NCBI GenBank assembly: GCA_000424365.1
Contig: AUJT01000002.1
Coordinates: 310,001 to 374,000 of the forward strand
Direction of reading: 5' to 3'
DNA length: 64,000 bases
Source: Lachnospiraceae bacterium NK4A144
GTDB lineage: Bacteria > Bacillota > Clostridia > Lachnospirales > Lachnospiraceae
Shown here piece after piece: positions 1,793 through 58,350 of the stretch (the first letter of the stretch is position 1; every line of letters begins with the position of its first letter). The position numbers and the translations under genes are program-made. A model generated the notes under the pieces. That model saw nothing but the letters and a program-made list of their open reading frames with translations. It was not told the origin of the DNA and did no database searches.

Positions 1793-2268
1793 AACCGCTT
1801 AGAGCCAACCGAGGATGACTTTAGTTCCTCCGAGATCTGAACCCGTCGCCGACAGGCGACTGGGGGCAAGTCACACTTCCTCGCTCGTGCGGAAGATGGG
1901 GCGCTGGACGTCCAGTGGACGTCCGCTTAGCGCCGACCGAAGAGGACTTTATGTCCCCCGAGATCTGAACCCGTCGCCGATAGGCGACTGGGTTCAAGTC
2001 ACACTTCCTCGCTCGTGCGGAAGATGGGGCGCTGGACGTCCAGTGGACGTCCGCTTAGCGCCGACCGAGGAGGACTTTATGTCCTCCGAGATCTGAACCC
2101 GTCGCCGATAGGCGACTGGGTTCAAGTCACACTTCCTCGCTCGTGCGGAAGATGGGGCGCTGGACGTCCAGTGGACGTCCGCTTAGCGCCGACCGAAGGG
2201 GACTTTATGTCCCCTGAGATCTGAACCCGTCGCCGCAGGCGACTGGGTTCAAGTCACACTTCTGCACG
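1793..2268 (-). repeat. 128-bp tandem repeat array downstream of tRNA-Leu
   Basis: About 3.7 units repeat with an exact 128-bp period; the landmark AGATCTGAAC occurs at 1833, 1961, 2089 and 2217. Each unit is a chain of hairpins: GTCGCC/GGCGAC inside GAACCC/GGGTTC, CTTCC/GGAAG, GGCGCT/AGCGCC enclosing two GGACGTCC boxes, and a GGAC-tttat-GTCC hairpin. The words TGCGGAAGATGGG and GGGTTCAAGTC match the 3' end of the neighbouring tRNA-Leu in both orientations. Open frames run through the array, but their peptides only mirror the repeat and are not credible genes. The array lies where transcripts reading past the tRNA terminator would go. Confidence 0.93.
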
Positions 2269-2269
2269 C

Positions 2270-2303
2270 AAAAATAGCAGGTGCACATGCACCTGCTATT
2301 TTT
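2270..2303 (-). terminator. Terminator of tRNA-Leu copy 1
   Basis: A perfect inverted repeat with 16-base arms (AAAAATAGCAGGTGCA) and a 2-base centre sits 2 bases past the tRNA 3' end. A/T runs on both sides make it an efficient, probably bidirectional, intrinsic terminator. The same hairpin follows the copy at 7615. Confidence 0.88.
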
Positions 2304-2305
2304 CG

Positions 2306-2389
2306 TGCGGAAGATGGGACTTGAACCCACACAACGTTGCCGTCACAAGATCCTTAGTCTTGCTCGTCTGCCAATTCCGACACTTCCGC
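2306..2389 (-). tRNA. tRNA-Leu (anticodon AAG), copy 1
   Basis: An 84-base class II tRNA with acceptor stem GCGGAAG/CTTCCGC, discriminator A, a long variable arm and a T-arm GGTTCAAGTCC. The anticodon stem CAAGA/TCTTG closes the loop CTAAGGA, which gives anticodon AAG. The CCA end is not encoded. An A at position 34 normally needs conversion to inosine by TadA to read CUN codons. The sequence is identical to the copies at 6056 and 7615. Confidence 0.95.
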
Positions 2390-2433: not shown

Positions 2434-2463
2434 ATACTACTATACATCACATTATTATGTCAA
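2434..2463 (-). promoter_or_regulatory. Promoter of tRNA-Leu copy 1
   Basis: On the minus strand a -35 TTGACA (2458-2463) is followed after 18 bases by TAGTAT (2434-2439), about 45 bases before the tRNA. The -35 and spacing match the promoters at 5105 and 6185. Confidence 0.7.
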
Positions 2464-2502: not shown

Positions 2503-4116
2503 TTAATGCGTTACAAATTTCAGATCATAATTAATGCTTTTACATAAACCTTTCGGTATCTGATACTTTTCATTATTCATGATCTCCCTTATCCACGCTG
2601 CTCTTTCCTCGGAGACGCTGCCGTACATATTGCGTCCGTATACTCCGGTTCTTATCACGTCTCTTATAGACTCATCTTCATAGGAATAAAGCATAAGAAC
2701 GTACGGTAATCTGTCCCACGATGATTCATGCACCAGCATCCTCGCCAACCTTTGCTTTGCAAATTCCGCTTCCGCCTTAACAAATAATTCATACACAGCC
2801 TTTGCGCCATACTTTATCCTATAAGCACATATCTCACGATATGCCTGATTCATTACGATCAAACGTTGATCCTGCAGATATTTCCAAAATATCTCATCTG
2901 CCTTATCTCCGCAAAGCATAGCAATTGCATGGATAGTATTTTTAACAACTGCCGTATCCTGATCCTCAAGATACTTCATCAAAAGATCGGCATCACTTTT
3001 CTCTCCGGTCTCTCCTATTCCCAAAATAGCTATTTTCCTGACCGGCGTATCTAGATGATCCTTATAAAATGCGGTTACATCTATCCCCGAATGCCTGCTA
3101 AGAATATACCTGACAGTTTCCCTTATACTTTTCGCCGGTGACAGAAGCATTTGCTCTAATCCATCCCAGCAATCACCTATAGTTTCATACTTTCGCTCGA
3201 TAGCCACTTTCTGGACTATCTTGCTCTTGTGATGAATATAGAAATCAAGTTCATCCACCGAAAACCCATAGCAGCTGATAAACTCTGTCAAATAGATTGC
3301 CTGACACTGACGATTTTTTTCTCTATCCAAAAGCCGTTTCATATCATATTTTTCGACAATCCCATAATCCATAAGAAAACGGTACACAGACTTTTTGGTA
3401 TAAAAATCATAATCATTTAAATCCAATAAACTCTTCTGCTCGAAATGACTTTTGAGACGTTCTGCCATTTCTTTCGCGACATTTTTAGCAACTTTCTCAT
3501 TTCGCCTCCTGCCCTCATATAAAACTTTCGAAAGAAATGGAACGCACGAGATCAACTCTTTATCAGATACATACTCAAGATCCTCACACATTCGTTCCGC
3601 AAGATCACGTATCTCTTTAACACTGTCATTTAATCTAAGTATTATATATTTAAGAGAATCTTCGTCACACTCGATCGCCCGCATACATTTTTCTCGAAAA
3701 TATCCATTTGAATGAAATGTTCCGAGTCGCGCAACCCACAAGAAATCCTCTCCGTCCCCAAGCTTCTCCAAAAGACTATCAATATCAACTTTCCGCCAGT
3801 CATAGTACCATTCCAAATAGTCGTAATCATGAAGTCGCTTACCAAGCCGAATGATCTCATCGCACTTCATATCACGCATATATCCGGCAATAGATTTCGC
3901 TGCCATTTTTGCTTTTTCAGAATCACCAAATACTGCCTCCTGATACATCAGGGACAGATTATGCTGATTCTCATTATCCAAGTCTCCTATAGTACCTGTG
4001 CATCGAAAAACCTGAGTTTTTTCCTGCTTTTCAACTTCCTTCGTGTTTTCACTTACCAATGCAGCCTTTTCTGCGATTTTATCCGGTTCTTTTTTCTTAA
4101 AAAGAAATCCAAACAT
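2503..4116 (-). CDS. HEAT-repeat-like protein of unknown function
   Basis: A soluble 537-residue protein that I do not recognise as a named family. The N-terminus (MFGFLFKKKEPDK) is short and basic and is followed by a charged linker to about residue 40. The rest is almost wholly alpha-helical, with regularly spaced helical pairs typical of HEAT/Armadillo solenoids, for example around 'VRKIAILGIGETGEKSDADL' and the following segment. Such solenoids usually mediate protein-protein contacts. I chose the ATG at 4116 because GAGG lies 6 bases upstream; an ATG 12 bases earlier overlaps that ribosome site. It is transcribed divergently from the flavodoxin-like gene and stands alone between two repeat clusters. 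Confidence 0.75.
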   Translation of the reverse strand: MFGFLFKKKEPDKIAEKAALVSENTKEVEKQEKTQVFRCTGTIGDLDNENQHNLSLMYQEAVFGDSEKAKMAAKSIAGYMRDMKCDEIIRLGKRLHDYDYLEWYYDWRKVDIDSLLEKLGDGEDFLWVARLGTFHSNGYFREKCMRAIECDEDSLKYIILRLNDSVKEIRDLAERMCEDLEYVSDKELISCVPFLSKVLYEGRRRNEKVAKNVAKEMAERLKSHFEQKSLLDLNDYDFYTKKSVYRFLMDYGIVEKYDMKRLLDREKNRQCQAIYLTEFISCYGFSVDELDFYIHHKSKIVQKVAIERKYETIGDCWDGLEQMLLSPAKSIRETVRYILSRHSGIDVTAFYKDHLDTPVRKIAILGIGETGEKSDADLLMKYLEDQDTAVVKNTIHAIAMLCGDKADEIFWKYLQDQRLIVMNQAYREICAYRIKYGAKAVYELFVKAEAEFAKQRLARMLVHESSWDRLPYVLMLYSYEDESIRDVIRTGVYGRNMYGSVSEERAAWIREIMNNEKYQIPKGLCKSINYDLKFVTH

Positions 4117-4151
4117 TGCATACCTCATTTCGATTTTTGTATGATGTTAAT

Positions 4152-4205
4152 GTCAAAAGTAAAAATCCTTTTTGTGCAAGCACAATCGGATTTTTTACTT
4201 TTGAC
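4152..4205. repeat. Long inverted repeat between divergent genes
   Basis: Arms GTCAAAAGTAAAAATCC (4152-4168) and GGATTTTTTACTTTTGAC (4188-4205) are complementary apart from one extra T, with an inner TGTGC/GCACA pair. It lies 36-90 bases upstream of the HEAT-repeat gene, between divergent transcription units. It could be an attenuator, a regulator-binding site or a small mobile repeat. Confidence 0.75.
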
Positions 4206-4393
4206 CATGTTATCATTATAATCTATCACACATTTTCTTTTACAATTTTTTGCATTCAGTTTTAATTTACATCTGACGATATTCTTTACAGAATAATTTG
4301 TGCGGTAATAAAGGGATCTGCCGGTTACATCGCATCCGAACCGCTGCATACCATGGAACTACGATCGCAGTAACAGAAAGATGAGAAAACGAA

Positions 4394-4942
4394 ATGATCT
4401 TATTTGTAAATGCTTGTGTACGAAATGATTCGAGAACAAAACAGATAGCTGATGCACTTTTGGAAAAATTAGGCGGGAACTATATTGAAGCGAGACTCGA
4501 AGATATTGAGTTTCCGAAAACAACCGATGAATTTTTGCACTACAGAGACACCTGCATAGAGCGCAGAGATTTTTCCGACAGCTATTTTGAACATGCCAAA
4601 AATTTTGCCCTTGCAGATACGATAGTCATCGCTGCTCCCTATTGGGATCTGTCTTTTCCTGCTATTTTGAAACAATATATCGAGCATATAAATGTCCTGG
4701 GCATTACCTTTGAATATACCGAAGAAGGCTATCCCAAAGGACTTTGTCACGCAAAAAAGCTCTATTACGTGATGACTGCCGGCGGCAGCTTCGTCCCCGG
4801 CGAATTTGGATTTGGATACATCAAAACCCTCGCCGAAAGCTTTTACGGCATAAAAGACGTAGAACTCATAAAAGCAGTTGGCTTAGATATATACGGTGCC
4901 GATCCAGAAGCCATCATTCATGAATGTATCAAAGGGCTTTAA
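4394..4942 (+). CDS. Flavodoxin-fold NAD(P)H-dependent oxidoreductase
   Basis: A 182-residue protein of the flavodoxin-like NAD(P)H quinone reductase/azoreductase group, which transfers hydride through FMN to quinones or azo compounds. The N-terminal beta strand with the phosphate-binding loop (MILFVNACVRNDSRTKQIAD) and the central 'APYWDLSFPAILKQYIEHIN' segment fit the FMN-binding loops of this family. A glycine-rich turn, 'TAGGSFVPG', lies near residue 130. The length suits single-domain members. It is the only plus-strand gene of the first 34 kb. Its stop codon lies at the very edge of a tRNA-associated repeat unit, so the repeat may have supplied the last bases of the gene. Confidence 0.88.
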   Translation: MILFVNACVRNDSRTKQIADALLEKLGGNYIEARLEDIEFPKTTDEFLHYRDTCIERRDFSDSYFEHAKNFALADTIVIAAPYWDLSFPAILKQYIEHINVLGITFEYTEEGYPKGLCHAKKLYYVMTAGGSFVPGEFGFGYIKTLAESFYGIKDVELIKAVGLDIYGADPEAIIHECIKGL

Positions 4943-5075
4943 CTCCTCCGAGATCTGAACCGTTTTCCGCAGACGACTGGGGCCAAGTCACACTTCCACG
5001 CTCGTGCGGAAGATGGGGCGCTGGACGTCCGGTGGACGTCTGCTTAGCGCCGACCGAAGGGGACTTTATCTCCTT
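4941..5075 (-). repeat. Single diverged unit of the tRNA-Leu-associated repeat
   Basis: One copy of the 128-bp unit, starting at the stop codon of the oxidoreductase gene. The CTTCC/GGAAG hairpin, the GGCGCT/AGCGCC hairpin and GGGGACTTTAT are present. The first hairpin has decayed (GTTTTCC against GACGAC), so this copy looks inactive or older. It joins directly to a tRNA leader and promoter that has no tRNA. Confidence 0.88.
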
Positions 5076-5104
5076 CTCGACGCTTGTGCACCGCAACGAA
5101 ATGT

Positions 5105-5134
5105 ATAATACTACATATCATATTTTTATGTCAA
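5105..5134 (-). promoter_or_regulatory. Orphan tRNA-Leu promoter
   Basis: On the minus strand TTGACA (5129-5134), an 18-base spacer and TATTAT (5105-5110) are nearly identical to the promoter of the tRNA-Leu at 6056, including the leader GTTGCGG. No tRNA follows; the promoter faces straight into a repeat unit and then into the 3' end of the plus-strand oxidoreductase gene. Confidence 0.75.
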
Positions 5135-5190
5135 CACCTTTTTTTAATATTTCACTCAAAATTTCACCCCAAAAATTTCTCCGGATTTTC

Positions 5191-5628
5191 TCATGAAAAC
5201 ATCCCTATGATGTTATTCACTTTCATCAGGCTTTCAGGCGCTATTTTAAGAGTCAGATACTCATCTCCCGTTCCACCATAAACAAAGTCATGCTTCATTA
5301 ATTTCTCATCAAAAAGACACGGCAAACCCAAACCAACCAGCGGAACCGAGCCAACTTCAAATCCCGTTTCTTCTTTTATCTTCTTCGGAGAAGCCATCTT
5401 TAACTTACTATATCCAAATTCTTCTTTTAATTTATCGAAATCAAGACGTCCATTCTGTAAAGAAACCATACATCCTATCAAGCCGTTTTCTGTTTCCAGC
5501 ACAAACGTAGGCGCCGACTTCTCAACCGGATAATACCCCTCCGCATCCATCGCCGACCGGATCGGTTTATCCTGCTTTATTAATTCATATTCAATCTCAT
5601 GCCCCTTAAGAATATCCTCAATAAACAT
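5191..5628 (-). CDS. YbaK/EbsC-family aminoacyl-tRNA editing protein
   Basis: A free-standing editing domain of 145 residues, related to YbaK/ProX and the insertion domain of prolyl-tRNA synthetase. Members hydrolyse mischarged aminoacyl-tRNA, typically Cys- or Ala-tRNA(Pro). The family pattern is visible: 'PTFVLETENGLIGCMVSL', a lysine-rich middle with 'LKMASPKKIKEETGFEVGSV' and the final 'VYGGTGDEYLTLKIAPE' giving the glycine loop. Substrate specificity cannot be told from sequence alone. It sits alone between two tRNA-Leu repeat clusters. The ATG at 5628 has a GGGAG site just upstream. Confidence 0.85.
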   Translation of the reverse strand: MFIEDILKGHEIEYELIKQDKPIRSAMDAEGYYPVEKSAPTFVLETENGLIGCMVSLQNGRLDFDKLKEEFGYSKLKMASPKKIKEETGFEVGSVPLVGLGLPCLFDEKLMKHDFVYGGTGDEYLTLKIAPESLMKVNNIIGMFS

Positions 5629-5699
5629 TTCCCTCTCCCCTTATTTATTTTCATTCAAAAAAATTGTACCTTATATCCCTCTGCATAGCAACCATGACC

Positions 5700-6012
5700 A
5701 CATCCTCATTCCTCATTCGTGTAGAAAATAGTGATACGCTGGATATGCCGTGAAAGTCTGCTTAACTCCGAAATCTGAACACGTTTGCCGCAGGCAAACT
5801 GGGTTCAGATCACACTTCCACGCGAAAGAAAAAGAGCAGATGCTCTCGCATCTGCCCTTTCTGTTCGTGCGGAAGATGGGGTGAGGCGGATTCAGAAAAA
5901 GATCCTGTGGATCTTTTTCCCGACGAACCGACCGACGAAGCGCTCCCGCGCGCTTCGGAGATCTGAACCGTTTGCCGCAGGCAAACTGGGTTCAAGTCAC
6001 ACTTCCTCTCGA
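5700..6012 (-). repeat. 188-bp variant of the tRNA-Leu-associated repeat
   Basis: Two units with a 188-bp period (landmark at 5771 and 5959), preceded by a decayed piece from about 5706. The architecture matches the 128-bp form but several stems are replaced: GTTTGCC/GGCAAAC for the first hairpin, AAAAAGATC/GATCTTTTT in place of the GGCGCT hairpin, and CGAAGCGC/GCGCTTCG in place of the GGAC hairpin. A terminator-like hairpin at 5826-5863 is inserted in the CTTCC/GGAAG loop. The tRNA-end word TGCGGAAGATGGG recurs at 5876. Long open frames here are artefacts. Confidence 0.9.
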
Positions 6013-6015
6013 ACG

Positions 6016-6050
6016 AAAAAGAGCAGATGCTCTCGCATCTGCCCTTTTTT
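6016..6050 (-). terminator. Terminator of tRNA-Leu copy 2
   Basis: AAAAGAGCAGATGC and GCATCTGCCCTTTTTT flank a TCTC loop immediately past the tRNA. The hairpin differs in sequence from that of copies 1 and 3, but a near-identical second copy lies at 5826-5863. Confidence 0.85.
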
Positions 6051-6055
6051 GTTCG

Positions 6056-6139
6056 TGCGGAAGATGGGACTTGAACCCACACAACGTTGCCGTCACAAGA
6101 TCCTTAGTCTTGCTCGTCTGCCAATTCCGACACTTCCGC
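6056..6139 (-). tRNA. tRNA-Leu (anticodon AAG), copy 2
   Basis: Base-for-base identical to the copy at 2306, with loop CTAAGGA and no encoded CCA. It differs in its downstream terminator and in the type of repeat that follows. Confidence 0.95.
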
Positions 6140-6184
6140 GTTTATTTTGTTGTTTCCCGACGCTTGTGCGCCGCAACGAAATGT

Positions 6185-6214
6185 ATAATACTACATATTG
6201 TATTTTTATGTCAA
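6185..6214 (-). promoter_or_regulatory. Promoter of tRNA-Leu copy 2
   Basis: TTGACA (6209-6214), an 18-base spacer and TATTAT (6185-6190) on the minus strand, 46 bases before the tRNA. Confidence 0.75.
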
Positions 6215-6251
6215 CAATTTTATTAAAAAAAAAATTTAAAATTTTTCGCAC

Positions 6252-7268
6252 CTACGCCGAATACCGCCATATACTTTTCATCTGCGACACTAACACATCC
6301 GCATCCCAATGTTTCTTACTGTTTTTCGGACTGTTCGGATCATTTACTACTACCTTTCCATCATCGTCAATATCAGTTAGAACAATAAAATGTCCTGTTG
6401 TAGTAAAATCTCCCTTGGTCATGGAACATATCATCGGCGTCGTCTCCGAAAGGTTATTTAATATATAATCCACAGACACATTTCCGGTCGAAACATTCAA
6501 TCCATAGTGTTCCGCCCCCTCAGTCATCATACTCCAGGATGTTCCCTCTCCATAGGTATAGTAACCCGAACTAGCCGAATATACGCCAACATCATACGGA
6601 TTGATCGCATCATTCTTTTCCAAGCCGCACACTACCATCGCAAGGCACGTCGGTCCGCAGCCGGCGACACCTATATAGTTTCCGCCGTAATCTCTATATC
6701 CCCATCTTTTATCCCATTGTATAAAAAGCGGGATATCACGTTCTGCCATTTCGGAAGAAACATCCATGTCAAAATTCACATTTTTATATTTATTATAATC
6801 TCTTACATATCCCTTCGCTTCAGGATACTTCTTACCAAATTCGACGATCTCATCCGGTACGCCTTTCGTACCGCCACCAAATAAAGAATCGCAGCCCGTC
6901 AATTCGATAACCTTTTCCGGAACATCAATAAAGCTATCCTCAAGCAAAGAATCATACTTCATCTTAAGCGCCACGCTTATCACCATCTCGATCACGAGAA
7001 TAACCGCAATAACTCTGCCAATCTTTATTTTTTTGTTTTTCTTTTCTGCCCTCTTGTGCCTTCCTTTTGACTTTCTGATAAAACAAACAAATCTGATAAT
7101 TCCAACTACAAGATGGATCACAAAAACAGCCATCAGACTCATTGCCGCAAATCCATCAGTGATCCAGTCAAACGCAAAAATATAATCAAGCGCCAATAAC
7201 CCCAAAAGAGTCAACAGCAGCAAAACCAGTCCTGTTATAAACCATATTAAAAACCGCTTCAAAATCAC
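6252..7268 (-). CDS. Membrane-anchored C39-family cysteine peptidase-like protein
   Basis: A 338-residue protein with two membrane helices at about residues 8-30 and 40-64, a basic loop, a third helix near 83-102, and an extracellular C-terminal domain of the peptidase C39_2 type. The papain-like active site is visible as the cysteine of 'GCGPTCLAM' (C208), the histidine of 'TGHFIVLTDI' (H293) and a following 'VNDPNS' (Asp/Asn). Such proteins are thought to cleave or process secreted peptides. There is no ABC exporter nearby, so it is probably not a bacteriocin leader peptidase. It is monocistronic and lies between two tRNA-Leu cassettes. Confidence 0.85.
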   Translation of the reverse strand: MILKRFLIWFITGLVLLLLTLLGLLALDYIFAFDWITDGFAAMSLMAVFVIHLVVGIIRFVCFIRKSKGRHKRAEKKNKKIKIGRVIAVILVIEMVISVALKMKYDSLLEDSFIDVPEKVIELTGCDSLFGGGTKGVPDEIVEFGKKYPEAKGYVRDYNKYKNVNFDMDVSSEMAERDIPLFIQWDKRWGYRDYGGNYIGVAGCGPTCLAMVVCGLEKNDAINPYDVGVYSASSGYYTYGEGTSWSMMTEGAEHYGLNVSTGNVSVDYILNNLSETTPMICSMTKGDFTTTGHFIVLTDIDDDGKVVVNDPNSPKNSKKHWDADVLVSQMKSIWRYSA

Positions 7269-7341
7269 CGTAAAACCTCATCAAAATCTTCACAATCCAC
7301 TCAAAAAATTGTACTCCAAATCCTACCCCCACACAACCCAT

Positions 7342-7569
7342 TGTACCTCCAGTGGACGTCCGCTTAGCGCCGACCGAAGGGGACTTTATGTCCCCTGAGA
7401 TCTGAACCCGTCACCGCCAGGTGACAGGGTTCAAGCCACACTTCCTCGCTCATGCGGAAGATGGGGCGCTGGACGTCCAGTGGACGTCCGCTTAGCGCCG
7501 ACCGAAGGGGACTTTATGTCCCCTGAGATCTGAACCCGTCGCCGCAGGCGACTGGGTTCAAGTCACACT
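7342..7569 (-). repeat. 128-bp tRNA-Leu-associated repeat, about 1.8 units
   Basis: Landmark AGATCTGAAC at 7398 and 7526 gives the same 128-bp period as the array at 1793. The first unit has the stem GTCACC/GGTGAC where others have GTCGCC/GGCGAC, a two-sided change that preserves pairing. The last unit and its junction with the terminator match 2160-2305 almost exactly, so the two loci share a recent copy. Confidence 0.92.
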
Positions 7570-7578
7570 TCTGCACGC

Positions 7579-7612
7579 AAAAATAGCAGGTGCACATGCA
7601 CCTGCTATTTTT
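7579..7612 (-). terminator. Terminator of tRNA-Leu copy 3
   Basis: Same 16-base-arm perfect hairpin (AAAAATAGCAGGTGCA) as at 2270, directly downstream of the tRNA. Confidence 0.88.
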
Positions 7613-7614
7613 CG

Positions 7615-7698
7615 TGCGGAAGATGGGACTTGAACCCACACAACGTTGCCGTCACAAGATCCTTAGTCTTGCTCGTCTGCCAATTCCGACACTTCCGC
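7615..7698 (-). tRNA. tRNA-Leu (anticodon AAG), copy 3
   Basis: Identical to the copies at 2306 and 6056. Its upstream leader is different, so the duplicated segment ends close to the tRNA 5' end. Confidence 0.95.
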
Positions 7699-7742
7699 GT
7701 TCATATATATTATCGAAACGAACTCGTTTCGCAACGAAAGCT

Positions 7743-7771
7743 ATCATACCGCAACGCGTCCCATCTGTCAA
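7743..7771 (-). promoter_or_regulatory. Promoter of tRNA-Leu copy 3
   Basis: TTGACA (7766-7771), a 17-base spacer and TATGAT (7743-7748) on the minus strand. Unlike copies 1 and 2 the spacer is GC-rich, so this promoter is probably native rather than copied. Confidence 0.75.
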
Positions 7772-7821
7772 CACATAATTTATTATTATTTGAATTTTTT
7801 TGAAATACTTAAATCTTCTGC

Positions 7822-8295
7822 TTATTGATCACCAAAATCCATCTGCAGATCCATATCGTCCGTAACTACCTCTTCATCATCCGTATCTTCTGATGACGGT
7901 GTCGGTATAAATTCTGTCATATAGTCTTTTTGATCCAATCCATCAAGCATAGCAGGCAGGTTGATGATCACTCCATCCATATTGTACGGAATAGGAAGTT
8001 TCACCTGTACCTTTGATGCAGAGCCGCCCTTTTCCTCTGTAATAACGAGCTGCATCTTGAAATCCTGCCCCATGGTATCGACCATTCCACGCTCACCGTC
8101 TTTAAGGCTCGCTACTTTTTCTCCATTGACCAGCACTTCGATCTTGTATGGAGTATCTATGGTCTTTCCACCATTTTCAAATGATTTGTTATCAAAATAA
8201 ATCGTATGACCGCGTCCGATTATAAACATGGCAACTGCAATAAGAAGTATAACTGCCACAGCCGCGGCACGATAAATCAAACTTTTCTTACCCAT
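7822..8295 (-). CDS. DUF6672-like membrane-anchored protein of the ABC operon
   Basis: Last gene of the five-gene ABC transporter operon. The start at 8295 (MGKKSLIYRAAAV) is preceded by AGGAG and overlaps the upstream permease by 8 bases. A single membrane helix spans residues 7-26. The extracytoplasmic remainder, ending in an acidic tail, resembles the small DUF6672 proteins found with this transporter type; that family name is from memory. The function is unknown. Its constant position behind the permeases suggests a transporter accessory or assembly role. Confidence 0.7.
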   Translation of the reverse strand: MGKKSLIYRAAAVAVILLIAVAMFIIGRGHTIYFDNKSFENGGKTIDTPYKIEVLVNGEKVASLKDGERGMVDTMGQDFKMQLVITEEKGGSASKVQVKLPIPYNMDGVIINLPAMLDGLDQKDYMTEFIPTPSSEDTDDEEVVTDDMDLQMDFGDQ

Positions 8296-9391
8296 TTGCG
8301 TTCTCCTGCTCCAGTGCCAACTGCTGGCTTTCCTTGCTCTTGTTTTTCCTCTTATTGGTTTCATACATTATAAGTGCCACGGTTATGACTGCATATGAAA
8401 CAAATACGCGGAAATATTCACCGATCATCGAGTCGCCCGTAATAACCGTTCCTGCCTTCGGTGCCACGATAAACATGGTATGGAAGAGAACGATTCCCAG
8501 GAAAACATTTCCTATAGACGCCTTATCAACTGATGCACCTCCAACAAGAAGTGCCGCTATACAAAACATTCCTATCTGCGAATGCGAGCTGTAAGTCGCT
8601 ATATTTCCCATATTCTGCAGATATATGATCATGCCGATGCCTGCAAGCACAGTGGAGAGTACCATTGATATGATCCTCGTCCGTTCTACATTTATACCAG
8701 CATCTCTTGCGACTTCCATATCCTGTCCAACTGCGCGCATATCCTGACCAAGTTTAGTCTTTCTAAACCAGATGATCACCAGACAAAGCACGAATACTAC
8801 CAGAAAAGTGGCAACCGGTATTTTAACACCCGCGATCGTTAACGGTATCAGATTATCAAGTTTTTGCCTCATGGACAATAAGGACACTGTATTTCTGACA
8901 CCGTAGCCTCTCGGAAGCTTTATGGTGCTGTGCTTAATAGGGATCACCGGACCCATGAGATAAAGCACTATGAGCTGATAAATACCATTGATAAAGAAGC
9001 TTATGATATAGCTTGTGATCATCTCTCTTCCCTTTGCCATGTTCAGGACTTTTCCGCAAAAAAGACCGAGCAAAGCGGATATCGGGATCGAAATGATCAT
9101 GGCAAGAACCATTCCTGGGATACTGACGATCTGCCAGTCACACACCAGTATAAGTCCGATCTCACCTGCCATAGCACCAAGTGTCATACTGAAATTCAGA
9201 CCCATTCCTGCCATGATAGGTATCAACAAACTCAATATCAAGAAGGCGTTTCGTCCCATTCTGGTTACTATCTCATTTATAAGGTAACTTGGTGACAAAC
9301 CTGATATCGGTGCACATATCACGCATATGATCACAAACATGATGGGAACCGAGAAGCGCCTCAAATAATCGCCTAAATTATTCTTACTCAT
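8288..9391 (-). CDS. ABC transporter permease, sugar/nucleoside type (second)
   Basis: Integral membrane subunit of the BPD_transp_2 family (RbsC/NupQ-like), 367 residues with about nine hydrophobic helices. The conserved cytoplasmic loop 'GQDMEVARDAGINVERTRI' near residue 225, which contacts the ATPase, and the later 'LLVGGASVDKASIGN' are typical. Its start overlaps the end of the first permease by 4 bases (ATGA), so the two are translationally coupled and probably form a heterodimeric channel. The substrate cannot be assigned. Confidence 0.92.
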   Translation of the reverse strand: MSKNNLGDYLRRFSVPIMFVIICVICAPISGLSPSYLINEIVTRMGRNAFLILSLLIPIMAGMGLNFSMTLGAMAGEIGLILVCDWQIVSIPGMVLAMIISIPISALLGLFCGKVLNMAKGREMITSYIISFFINGIYQLIVLYLMGPVIPIKHSTIKLPRGYGVRNTVSLLSMRQKLDNLIPLTIAGVKIPVATFLVVFVLCLVIIWFRKTKLGQDMRAVGQDMEVARDAGINVERTRIISMVLSTVLAGIGMIIYLQNMGNIATYSSHSQIGMFCIAALLVGGASVDKASIGNVFLGIVLFHTMFIVAPKAGTVITGDSMIGEYFRVFVSYAVITVALIMYETNKRKNKSKESQQLALEQENANG

Positions 9392-57428: not shown

Positions 57429-58128
57429 TCATCTTTTCTGCTCTTTCTTATTTTTGTCCTCTCTCTGTCGCTGCTCTTTGTCGATTTTCAGGAACTTATC
57501 TATGTCCTGTTTTGCAATCTGATAGTCCATCATCTCCTTCTTTTCTGTGCGATACTCTACATAGAGTTTCTTCTTTTCCGCAAGAATTCTTCCGTACGCT
57601 TCAGATAATTCTTTCCATTTCGGAAGTTTCTCAAGCTGCATCCTGTCAAATGTTTCCTTTGCAGATTTATGGATCAGGATATCTTCCCTATGCTTCTCAT
57701 AATACTTTTTGCTGTATCCTGCCTTGCGATAATCAGCGTATACGTCTTTTGTCTTTGAATAATTTCCTATCGCAGTCTTCAATTCAACAATTTCTGACAG
57801 CCTTGCTTCTTTTGATTTTATCGAGTCGGACAGCTCATGAAATCTGTCGGAACTTCCCTTTGCTTTTTGAGCCAGATCTTCATAATCTCTTATTCCATGT
57901 TCCTGCAAATACAATAATGCTTTTGATATCTGCTTTACGTTGTAGACCTTAGCCCAGCGTTCATACCCTGTGATACGGACTATGGTTATCACGCTCCGAT
58001 GGTTTTCGTGGAATTATTACAGACAGCGCATGCTCCAAACAGACAAGGTTGCTAACTTTCTGAAGTACCAGTGCTATAAACCATGAATCCCGGAACTTCC
58101 GGTCACATGAAAGATTTGTGGAATTAAG
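57429..58128 (-). pseudogene. Broken relaxase (mobilisation nuclease), C-terminal two thirds
   Basis: Reading on the minus strand from about 58128, one frame encodes 'LNSTNLSCDRKFRD' and 'VSNLVCLEHALSVI', matching the region after the third catalytic motif of MobA/VirD2-type relaxases. A frameshift near 57975 moves coding into the frame running 57992-57429, which gives the helical C-terminal part ('YSKTKDVYADYRKAGYSKKY', 'AKQDIDKFLKIDKEQRQRED'). The catalytic N-terminus is absent; a group II intron relic sits where it should continue. It shows that the island came with a conjugative or mobilisable element. Confidence 0.8.
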
Positions 58129-58350
58129 TAGGCTAAGCCCCCAGCGCCTTACTACATTACTGTAGTAAGTTTCCGAAGACTCGCCCCGAAACCGGACTTA
58201 CAACTCGTCACTGTATCCGGCTTCCCATCTATTTCTCAGCTTACTTATAAATGTATCATCTCATGACATTGCGGACAGACAACGTAAGCGTCATATATGC
58301 CCCCGGATTCCCATGCAGCTGATTTTTTTTCATAATGGTGTCGAAATCCG
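58129..58350 (-). mobile_element. Group II intron relic (3' end)
   Basis: On the minus strand an HNH-like tail 'AYVVCPQCHEMIHL' ends with a stop at 58245, as at the C-terminus of intron-encoded proteins. About 20 bases later, 58188-58226 can fold like intron domain V (AAGCCGGA ... TCCGGTTT with a GNRN-type loop and AGC near its base), followed by further hairpins. The sequence then joins the relaxase frame at its conserved NST segment. Splice-site precision suggests insertion in the relaxase; the 5' part of the intron is gone. Confidence 0.55.

Follow-up and report, generated by a model that had tools for sequence, protein, structure and literature searches.

A tandem array behind a Lachnospiraceae tRNA-Leu gene, probably an amplified form of a dispersed palindromic repeat

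What is the 128-bp repeat that follows a tRNA-Leu gene of Lachnospiraceae bacterium NK4A144, and how did pieces of the tRNA come to lie inside it? The repeat belongs to the window, that is, the whole stretch of 64,000 nucleotides that was analysed, positions 310,001 to 374,000 of contig AUJT01000002.1. A sequence-only reading had proposed a tRNA-derived mobile repeat, a processing or decoy RNA arising by read-through from the tRNA, or an integration hot spot renewing the tRNA end. It had also taken pairing-preserving changes as a sign of selection on structure in RNA or single-stranded DNA.

The array and related modules in the window

The host tRNA of the array is tRNA-Leu(AAG) gene 1, located at 2305-2389 on the minus strand (ARAGORN and Rfam). 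Its sigma-70-like promoter, TTGACA-18-TAGTAT, lies at 2434-2463 (minus). Directly 3' of the gene, a terminator palindrome (2270-2303, minus) has 16-bp arms that match at 100%. Together with the flanking tRNA tail and an inverted copy of that tail, it forms one longer palindrome. The array is found past this terminator, 3' of the gene, at 1795-2262, and its sense strand is also the minus strand. TRF delineates 3.7 units of 128 bp with 94% matches, and a repeat search of the window places the unit starts 128, 128 and 127-128 apart, so that the 128-bp period noticed earlier is real. Units 1 to 3 occupy 2144-2263, 2016-2136 and 1888-2008; unit 4 (1795-1880), the outermost one, is degenerate (all minus strand).

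On the tRNA strand, each unit reads as a short spacer, S', hairpin H2, a T-arm half, hairpin H3, a CGGTC tag with the E hairpin, and A. S' repeats the T-arm and the acceptor 3' strand of the tRNA in inverted orientation (GGAAGTGTGACTTGAACCCA); A repeats the tail in direct orientation (CCCATCTTCCGCACGA). As had been claimed, every unit thus holds the tRNA 3' end in both orientations (TCGTGCGGAAGATGGG and TGGGTTCAAGTCACACTTC). H2 is GTCGCC/GGCGAC, the T-arm half is GGGTTCAGATC and H3 is GGAGGAC-ATAAA-GTCCTCC. The E hairpin, GGCGCT-aagc-GGACGTCC-ACT-GGACGTCC-AGCGCC, follows the conserved tag. It is part of the central module of the unit, an element of about 55 nt that we call E (gTCTcCGCTCCGCTtCGGTCGGCGCTAAAC..CCACTGG..AGCGCC). 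Our covariance model of E, R1, matches a core copy in unit 1 (2155-2213), unit 2 (2027-2085) and unit 3 (1899-1957), all on the minus strand.

Unit 2 is predicted to fold into a closed four-helix cloverleaf (-71.4 kcal/mol, z -8.3). The fold from S' to A lies 8.3 standard deviations below dinucleotide shuffles, none of which equals it, and DNA parameters give z = -7.5. In addition, GAGATCTGAACCC occurs 12 times where 1.1 occurrences are expected. Because of this excess and of the fold, the array is not a product of chance. It is not a CRISPR either: the whole 128-bp unit repeats at 94% and unique spacers are absent. An integron attC array was likewise rejected, GTTRRRY core sites being absent inside the array and the two matches lying outside it.

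Two further tRNA-Leu(AAG) genes, both identical to gene 1, are present on the minus strand at 6055-6139 (gene 2) and 7614-7698 (gene 3). Each of the three genes has a TTGACA-type promoter. Gene 3 is followed by the same terminator (about 7579-7612) and by a two-unit array at 7345-7572 (minus), with one complete unit (7453-7572) and one truncated. Behind gene 2, a cassette at 5866-6010 (minus) is composed of S', a GTTTGCC/GGCAAAC hairpin, a CGCGCGGG hairpin, a GGTTCG-type variant of E and a tail copy; it shares the layout of the array units but differs in hairpin sequence. A second, degenerate cassette with its own terminator copy lies at 5760-5865 (minus). Finally, an orphan partial unit (4933-5075, minus), whose tRNA is deleted, is fused to a tRNA-type promoter (5105-5134). 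The stem variants listed in the sequence-only reading are all present: GTCGCC/GGCGAC in the first array, GTCACC/GGTGAC at 7406, GTTTGCC/GGCAAAC at 5965, as well as GGGGAC/GTCCCC and GAGGAC/GTCCTC. In the genome of NK4A144 the unit occurs nowhere outside this 6-kb tRNA-Leu cluster.

An AAG anticodon (A34) on tRNA-Leu is unusual in bacteria; congeners carry one to four copies of the gene. The gene order among the tRNA-Leu modules (window 2503-8364) is shuffled with respect to that of genome G030 (locus L037). The shuffled genes encode a flavodoxin-like protein, an aminoacyl-tRNA editing domain and a C39 peptidase, and their neighbourhoods differ. Elsewhere in the window, 58128-58225 gives a weak match to a group II intron (RF00029, 41.1 bits for a gathering score of 40).

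Dispersal of E and tRNA-tail copies behind tRNA genes

The consensus of E over 114 copies is gTCTcCGCTCCGCTtCGGTCGGCGCTAAACGaACGTCCACTGGACGTtCAGCGCC, with no conservation in the flanks. Its hairpin measures 35 nt; stems of 6 and 8 bp are stacked in it, a bulge of 4 nt lies on one side, and the loop has 3 nt. CGGTC is invariant before the stem in an alignment of 105 copies. A degenerate pattern of E matched at least 119 stretches of the genome collection; nearly all of the matches listed are labelled Lachnospiraceae, and they include Mediterraneibacter catenae SW178 and Agathobacter ruminis JK623. With R1, E was detected in 53 of 99 relatives, with a maximum of 35 copies per genome; outside Lachnospiraceae the model gives three weak matches only. 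Further copies in relatives, which the earlier reading called for, thus exist. In congeners the E part is dispersed, unlike the unit in the genome of the window. E is present at many unrelated sites, most of its copies being away from tRNAs.

A phage or plasmid origin of E was rejected, since the core turned up in no plasmid and in no more than 2 viral contigs and 1 phage record. An ORF bounded by a pair of E copies (L081) was considered as a transposase, but its translation looks like an esterase-type gene. A link to IS200 or to a RAYT, the Y1 tyrosine transposase associated with GTAG-class REPs, was also considered. Y1_Tnp is absent from draft genomes G020, G023 and G025, which hold 16-35 copies of E, and present in other genomes; in this set, part of which are drafts, its presence does not seem to track E copy number. 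No mobilising enzyme for E was identified among the ORFs near the array or the Y1 transposases across relatives. The idea of a tRNA-derived mobile repeat comes close as regards the family-wide dispersed core, not as regards a linked integrase or transposase.

Cassettes similar to those of the window are found behind other tRNAs. In E-bearing loci, 28 of 95 tRNAs have their own 3' 11-mer repeated within 250 nt downstream, a sample biased by the fact that these loci were fetched because they hold E. In the same 95 tRNAs, the anticodon-arm 11-mer is never repeated and the 5' 11-mer is repeated once. In an unbiased look, the cassette was seen at none of the 33 other tRNAs of the window's genome and at 3 of 50 tRNAs of three congeners, where a fourth match is an ordinary duplicated tRNA-Gly. 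Tail copies are found, among others, behind Leu-AAG, Leu-TAG, Gly-CCC, Gly-GCC, Arg-CCT, Arg-ACG, Lys and Met tRNAs. The shared layout runs tRNA - terminator - S' - GGTTC(RA) - E - A. The direct repeat of the tail starts at nt 60/61, with a left extension of 0-1 nt in all but two listed pairs. Inverted tail copies score more than 4 above the shuffle mean in 20 of 28 cases. An origin of S' from the 5' acceptor strand was discarded, as G061 has 22 of 24 nt of the inverted tail. Tandem periods elsewhere are 198 (tRNA-Leu, G036), 165 (tRNA-Lys, G027) and 123 (G022).

Could a site-specific recombinase of the integrase or Xer type have inserted a miniature non-autonomous element at the tRNA 3' end, the tail copies being att repeats and the array a tandem accretion? 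tRNA 3' ends are classical att sites. Tandem units, a crossover region in the T-loop and direct copies of each tRNA's 3' end that begin at a fixed boundary are what such an enzyme would leave, and the cassette shares the direct repeat and the tandem accretion with tRNA-integrated genomic islands. However, it measures only about 130 bp (units of 121-198 nt), it contains an inverted copy that recombination does not predict, and no integrase-like or transposase ORF was found among the ORFs around the array. Moreover, every tail copy matches its local tRNA, be it Leu, Gly, Arg, Lys or Met, so that a single attP cannot explain the copies. The direct repeats also extend far past the tRNA, by about 180 nt at G036 (period 198) and about 110 nt at tRNA-Lys, and E occurs at many non-tRNA sites. 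We consider this explanation unlikely. Of the proposed hot spot renewing the tRNA end, the direct copies and their boundary hold; the integrase is missing around the array, and inverted copies would be better explained by template switching.

Covariation of the hairpins

Compensatory changes are seen in H2, H3 and E. For E, covariation was measured on 105 distinct copies, retrieved by sequence profile and not by structure. In this set, 98.6% of the cells of the hairpin are paired and 12 of 14 pairs have changed on both sides, with 225 double-change cells compared with 50 in shuffles. Pairing falls below 41% when the partners are slid. In 10 distinct rows of the window-type unit, 9 pairs are doubly changed, compared with 2.1 after shuffling. 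The pairing-preserving changes noticed earlier are thus upheld and considerably reinforced.

The stems of E are almost devoid of G-U pairs: 11 of about 1,450 pairs (0.8%), compared with 164 of 1,811 (9.1%) in tRNA stems of the same loci and 9.6% in terminator-like hairpins, a set that may include chance folds. A Fisher test of E against tRNA stems gives p about 1e-30, a value that is indicative only because E copies are related. Stems selected as RNA normally pass through G-U. The scarcity of G-U combined with strong covariation therefore points to a palindrome kept at the DNA level rather than as RNA; an enzyme acting on folded DNA, template switching, or both might ensure this upkeep. According to published work, template switching gives rise to stems that are perfect and compensated (PMC8794818). 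Of the selection on RNA or single-stranded DNA structure put forward before, the DNA part gains from the G-U count and the RNA part loses. E would be a natural case of strong DNA-level covariation, a warning for methods that equate covariation with RNA function.

The same figures bear on the possibility that the array works, by read-through from the tRNA, as an attenuator or a functional structured RNA, for instance a switch that sequesters the tail, with the tRNA tail and A as alternative pairing partners of S'. The stable closed cloverleaf and the compensatory changes would suit such a role, and so would the preservation of the layout in congeners with quite different hairpins (tRNA-Leu(AAG) loci L262, L267, L269, L272 and L286). 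A position that is mostly downstream of the tRNA and on its strand would suit it too. Other congener tRNA-Leu(AAG) loci hold E as in the window. Besides the near absence of G-U, the position of the array behind a terminator argues against it, as do the lack of a cassette at about ten congener tRNA-Leu(AAG) loci, about half of them, the inverted orientation of E in the tRNA-Met cassette (L096), and the many E copies remote from tRNAs. Among the covariance models of Rfam 15, tRNA is the sole match, the remaining hits being far under the gathering score. A functional RNA is in our opinion improbable, and the processing or decoy RNA suggested at first finds no support, the array being placed past the terminator and Rfam giving no match to it.

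E in T-loops and a possible origin of the array

Hairpin loops harbour E at more than the expected frequency. Across the insertion point the flanks form 11.0 pairs, compared with 8.7 expected from permuted flanks (p = 0.003); a stricter near-junction test gives p = 0.05, and the preference is modest on average. Clear cases of E at the tip of long inverted repeats are L261, L192 and L030. Of 84 flank-distinct copies, 11 lie within 300 nt of a tRNA, compared with 21 of 1,382 control points drawn at random from these loci.

Some copies are inside tRNA genes. The T-loop motif GGTTCRA directly precedes 13 of 238 non-redundant E copies, and removal of E restores a tRNA call across the junction for 7 of the 238, compared with 0 of 759 random removals. 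The interrupted tRNAs are two Leu-CAA, Ser-CGA, Ser-GCT, Ala-TGC, Asn-GTT and Arg-CCT. The junction is identical in all seven, after TTCRA(n) (nt 57-59) and before C61. In the T-loop fold nucleotides 59-60 bulge out, and an insert at this place would therefore be the least disruptive. E thus shows a repeatable, base-exact target in tRNA genes. Such targets are missed by standard annotation, in which interrupted tRNAs and tail copies are uncalled or miscalled.

The exact recurrent position and the intact acceptor and T stems around the insert might suggest that E is an intron-like or tolerated insert in functional tRNAs. We find this very unlikely: E has only 55 nt and no catalytic core, intact tRNA copies often adjoin interrupted ones (L018, L190, L228), and the L190 copy carries another insert as well.

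In L190 (about 1360-1560), a tRNA-Leu(CAA) with an intact copy next to it has two E elements in tandem in the T-loop, and its D-arm region carries a hairpin insert. L146 (5858-7205) and L062 (53-2508) are tRNA arrays with several T-loop-interrupted tRNAs; they may be prophage-borne, because endolysin or helicase/repressor genes are nearby. A tRNA-Thr of L062 has a different palindrome, ATGTCTGCTTGCAGACAT, in its T-loop.

We propose that the array is probably a tRNA-linked, tandemly amplified form of E, a short palindromic repeat of Lachnospiraceae. E would spread as folded hairpin DNA that enters the tips of other hairpins, among which the T-loop would be both favoured and tolerated. Template switching at the terminator and T-arm hairpins would then write the inverted and direct tail copies. 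The resulting S - S' - S(E) pattern can be seen as a micro tandem-inversion-duplication, and copying of hairpins by template switch would also keep the stems perfectly Watson-Crick. Unequal recombination or slippage between direct tail copies could amplify the 128-bp units, as well as those of 198, 165 and 123 bp elsewhere. Recombination between tail copies may also have produced the orphan promoter-unit fusion (4933-5134) and the shuffled gene order in the window genome (G000) and G030. If so, the array is most likely selfish or neutral DNA, and not a gene. Against this reading, S' and E are constantly associated 3' of tRNAs in several species, which could also reflect selection for the closed structure. 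A purely local rearrangement, in which tandem inversion duplication and slippage at the tRNA terminator act without a mobile element, would account for the S-terminator-S'-S pattern and the palindromic junctions but is hardly tenable, being already contradicted by the E core consensus shared by hundreds of unrelated sites, other genera included.

The array has features of tandem inversion duplications and template-switch (quasipalindrome) mutations, namely a forward-inverted-forward order, palindromic junctions and perfect compensatory stems (PMC8794818, PMC7202029). Unlike tandem inversion duplications, its segments are tens of bases long, fixed, and recur at tRNA 3' ends with a dispersed element.

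E itself is best read as a REP- or palindromic-element-like family that favours hairpin loops and tRNA T-loops. REP elements of the GTAG and CGTC superfamilies are short imperfect palindromes, dispersed outside genes and clustered, whose stem is preceded on the 5' side by a conserved, unpaired tag; those of the CGTC class have no dedicated transposase (Di Nocera et al. 2013, PMC3733652). The text of that paper names no Firmicutes or clostridia. E also is a short imperfect palindrome with an unpaired tag 5' of its stem; it is dispersed extragenically, forms clusters and fits the REP size class, with a 35-nt hairpin within the 20-40 nt range and up to 35 copies per genome. In contrast, its CGGTC tag is neither GTAG nor the exact CGTC tetramer (REP tags also include TGTC and CCTC) and does not qualify as a REP tag, in agreement with the view that the repeat is not a standard REP. 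E also differs in belonging to Lachnospiraceae, in landing in tRNA T-loops and in having copies of the host tRNA tail on its flanks. Rickettsia palindromic elements are similar to E as small palindromes that invade genes and intergenic regions of one lineage. They are known mainly as in-frame protein inserts, and this description sets them apart from E, which occupies one fixed place in tRNA genes.

No earlier report of a Lachnospiraceae palindromic repeat or of a T-loop insert was found in the open-licence PMC literature searched. The recurrence of E at the same T-loop position of different tRNA genes appears to be undescribed, and E appears to add a REP-like family to the Lachnospiraceae, which are dominant in gut and rumen. 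Going further, E may be a family of mobile DNA hairpins with a fixed T-loop target (nt 59-61), the first of its kind to be described. It would move as folded single-stranded DNA by means of a putative enzyme and either tolerate the interruption of the tRNA or repair it by copying the local tail, giving rise to pseudo-tRNA arrays. We advance this only tentatively; mobility of E, and any function, are what we infer. If mobility is true, which enzyme moves a 55-nt hairpin into T-loops becomes the question.

In G020 (L237-L240), E is embedded in a larger palindrome, GCATGGCG...CGCCATGC, whose dispersed copies are nearly identical, and many of the 35 E copies of this genome lie at contig ends.
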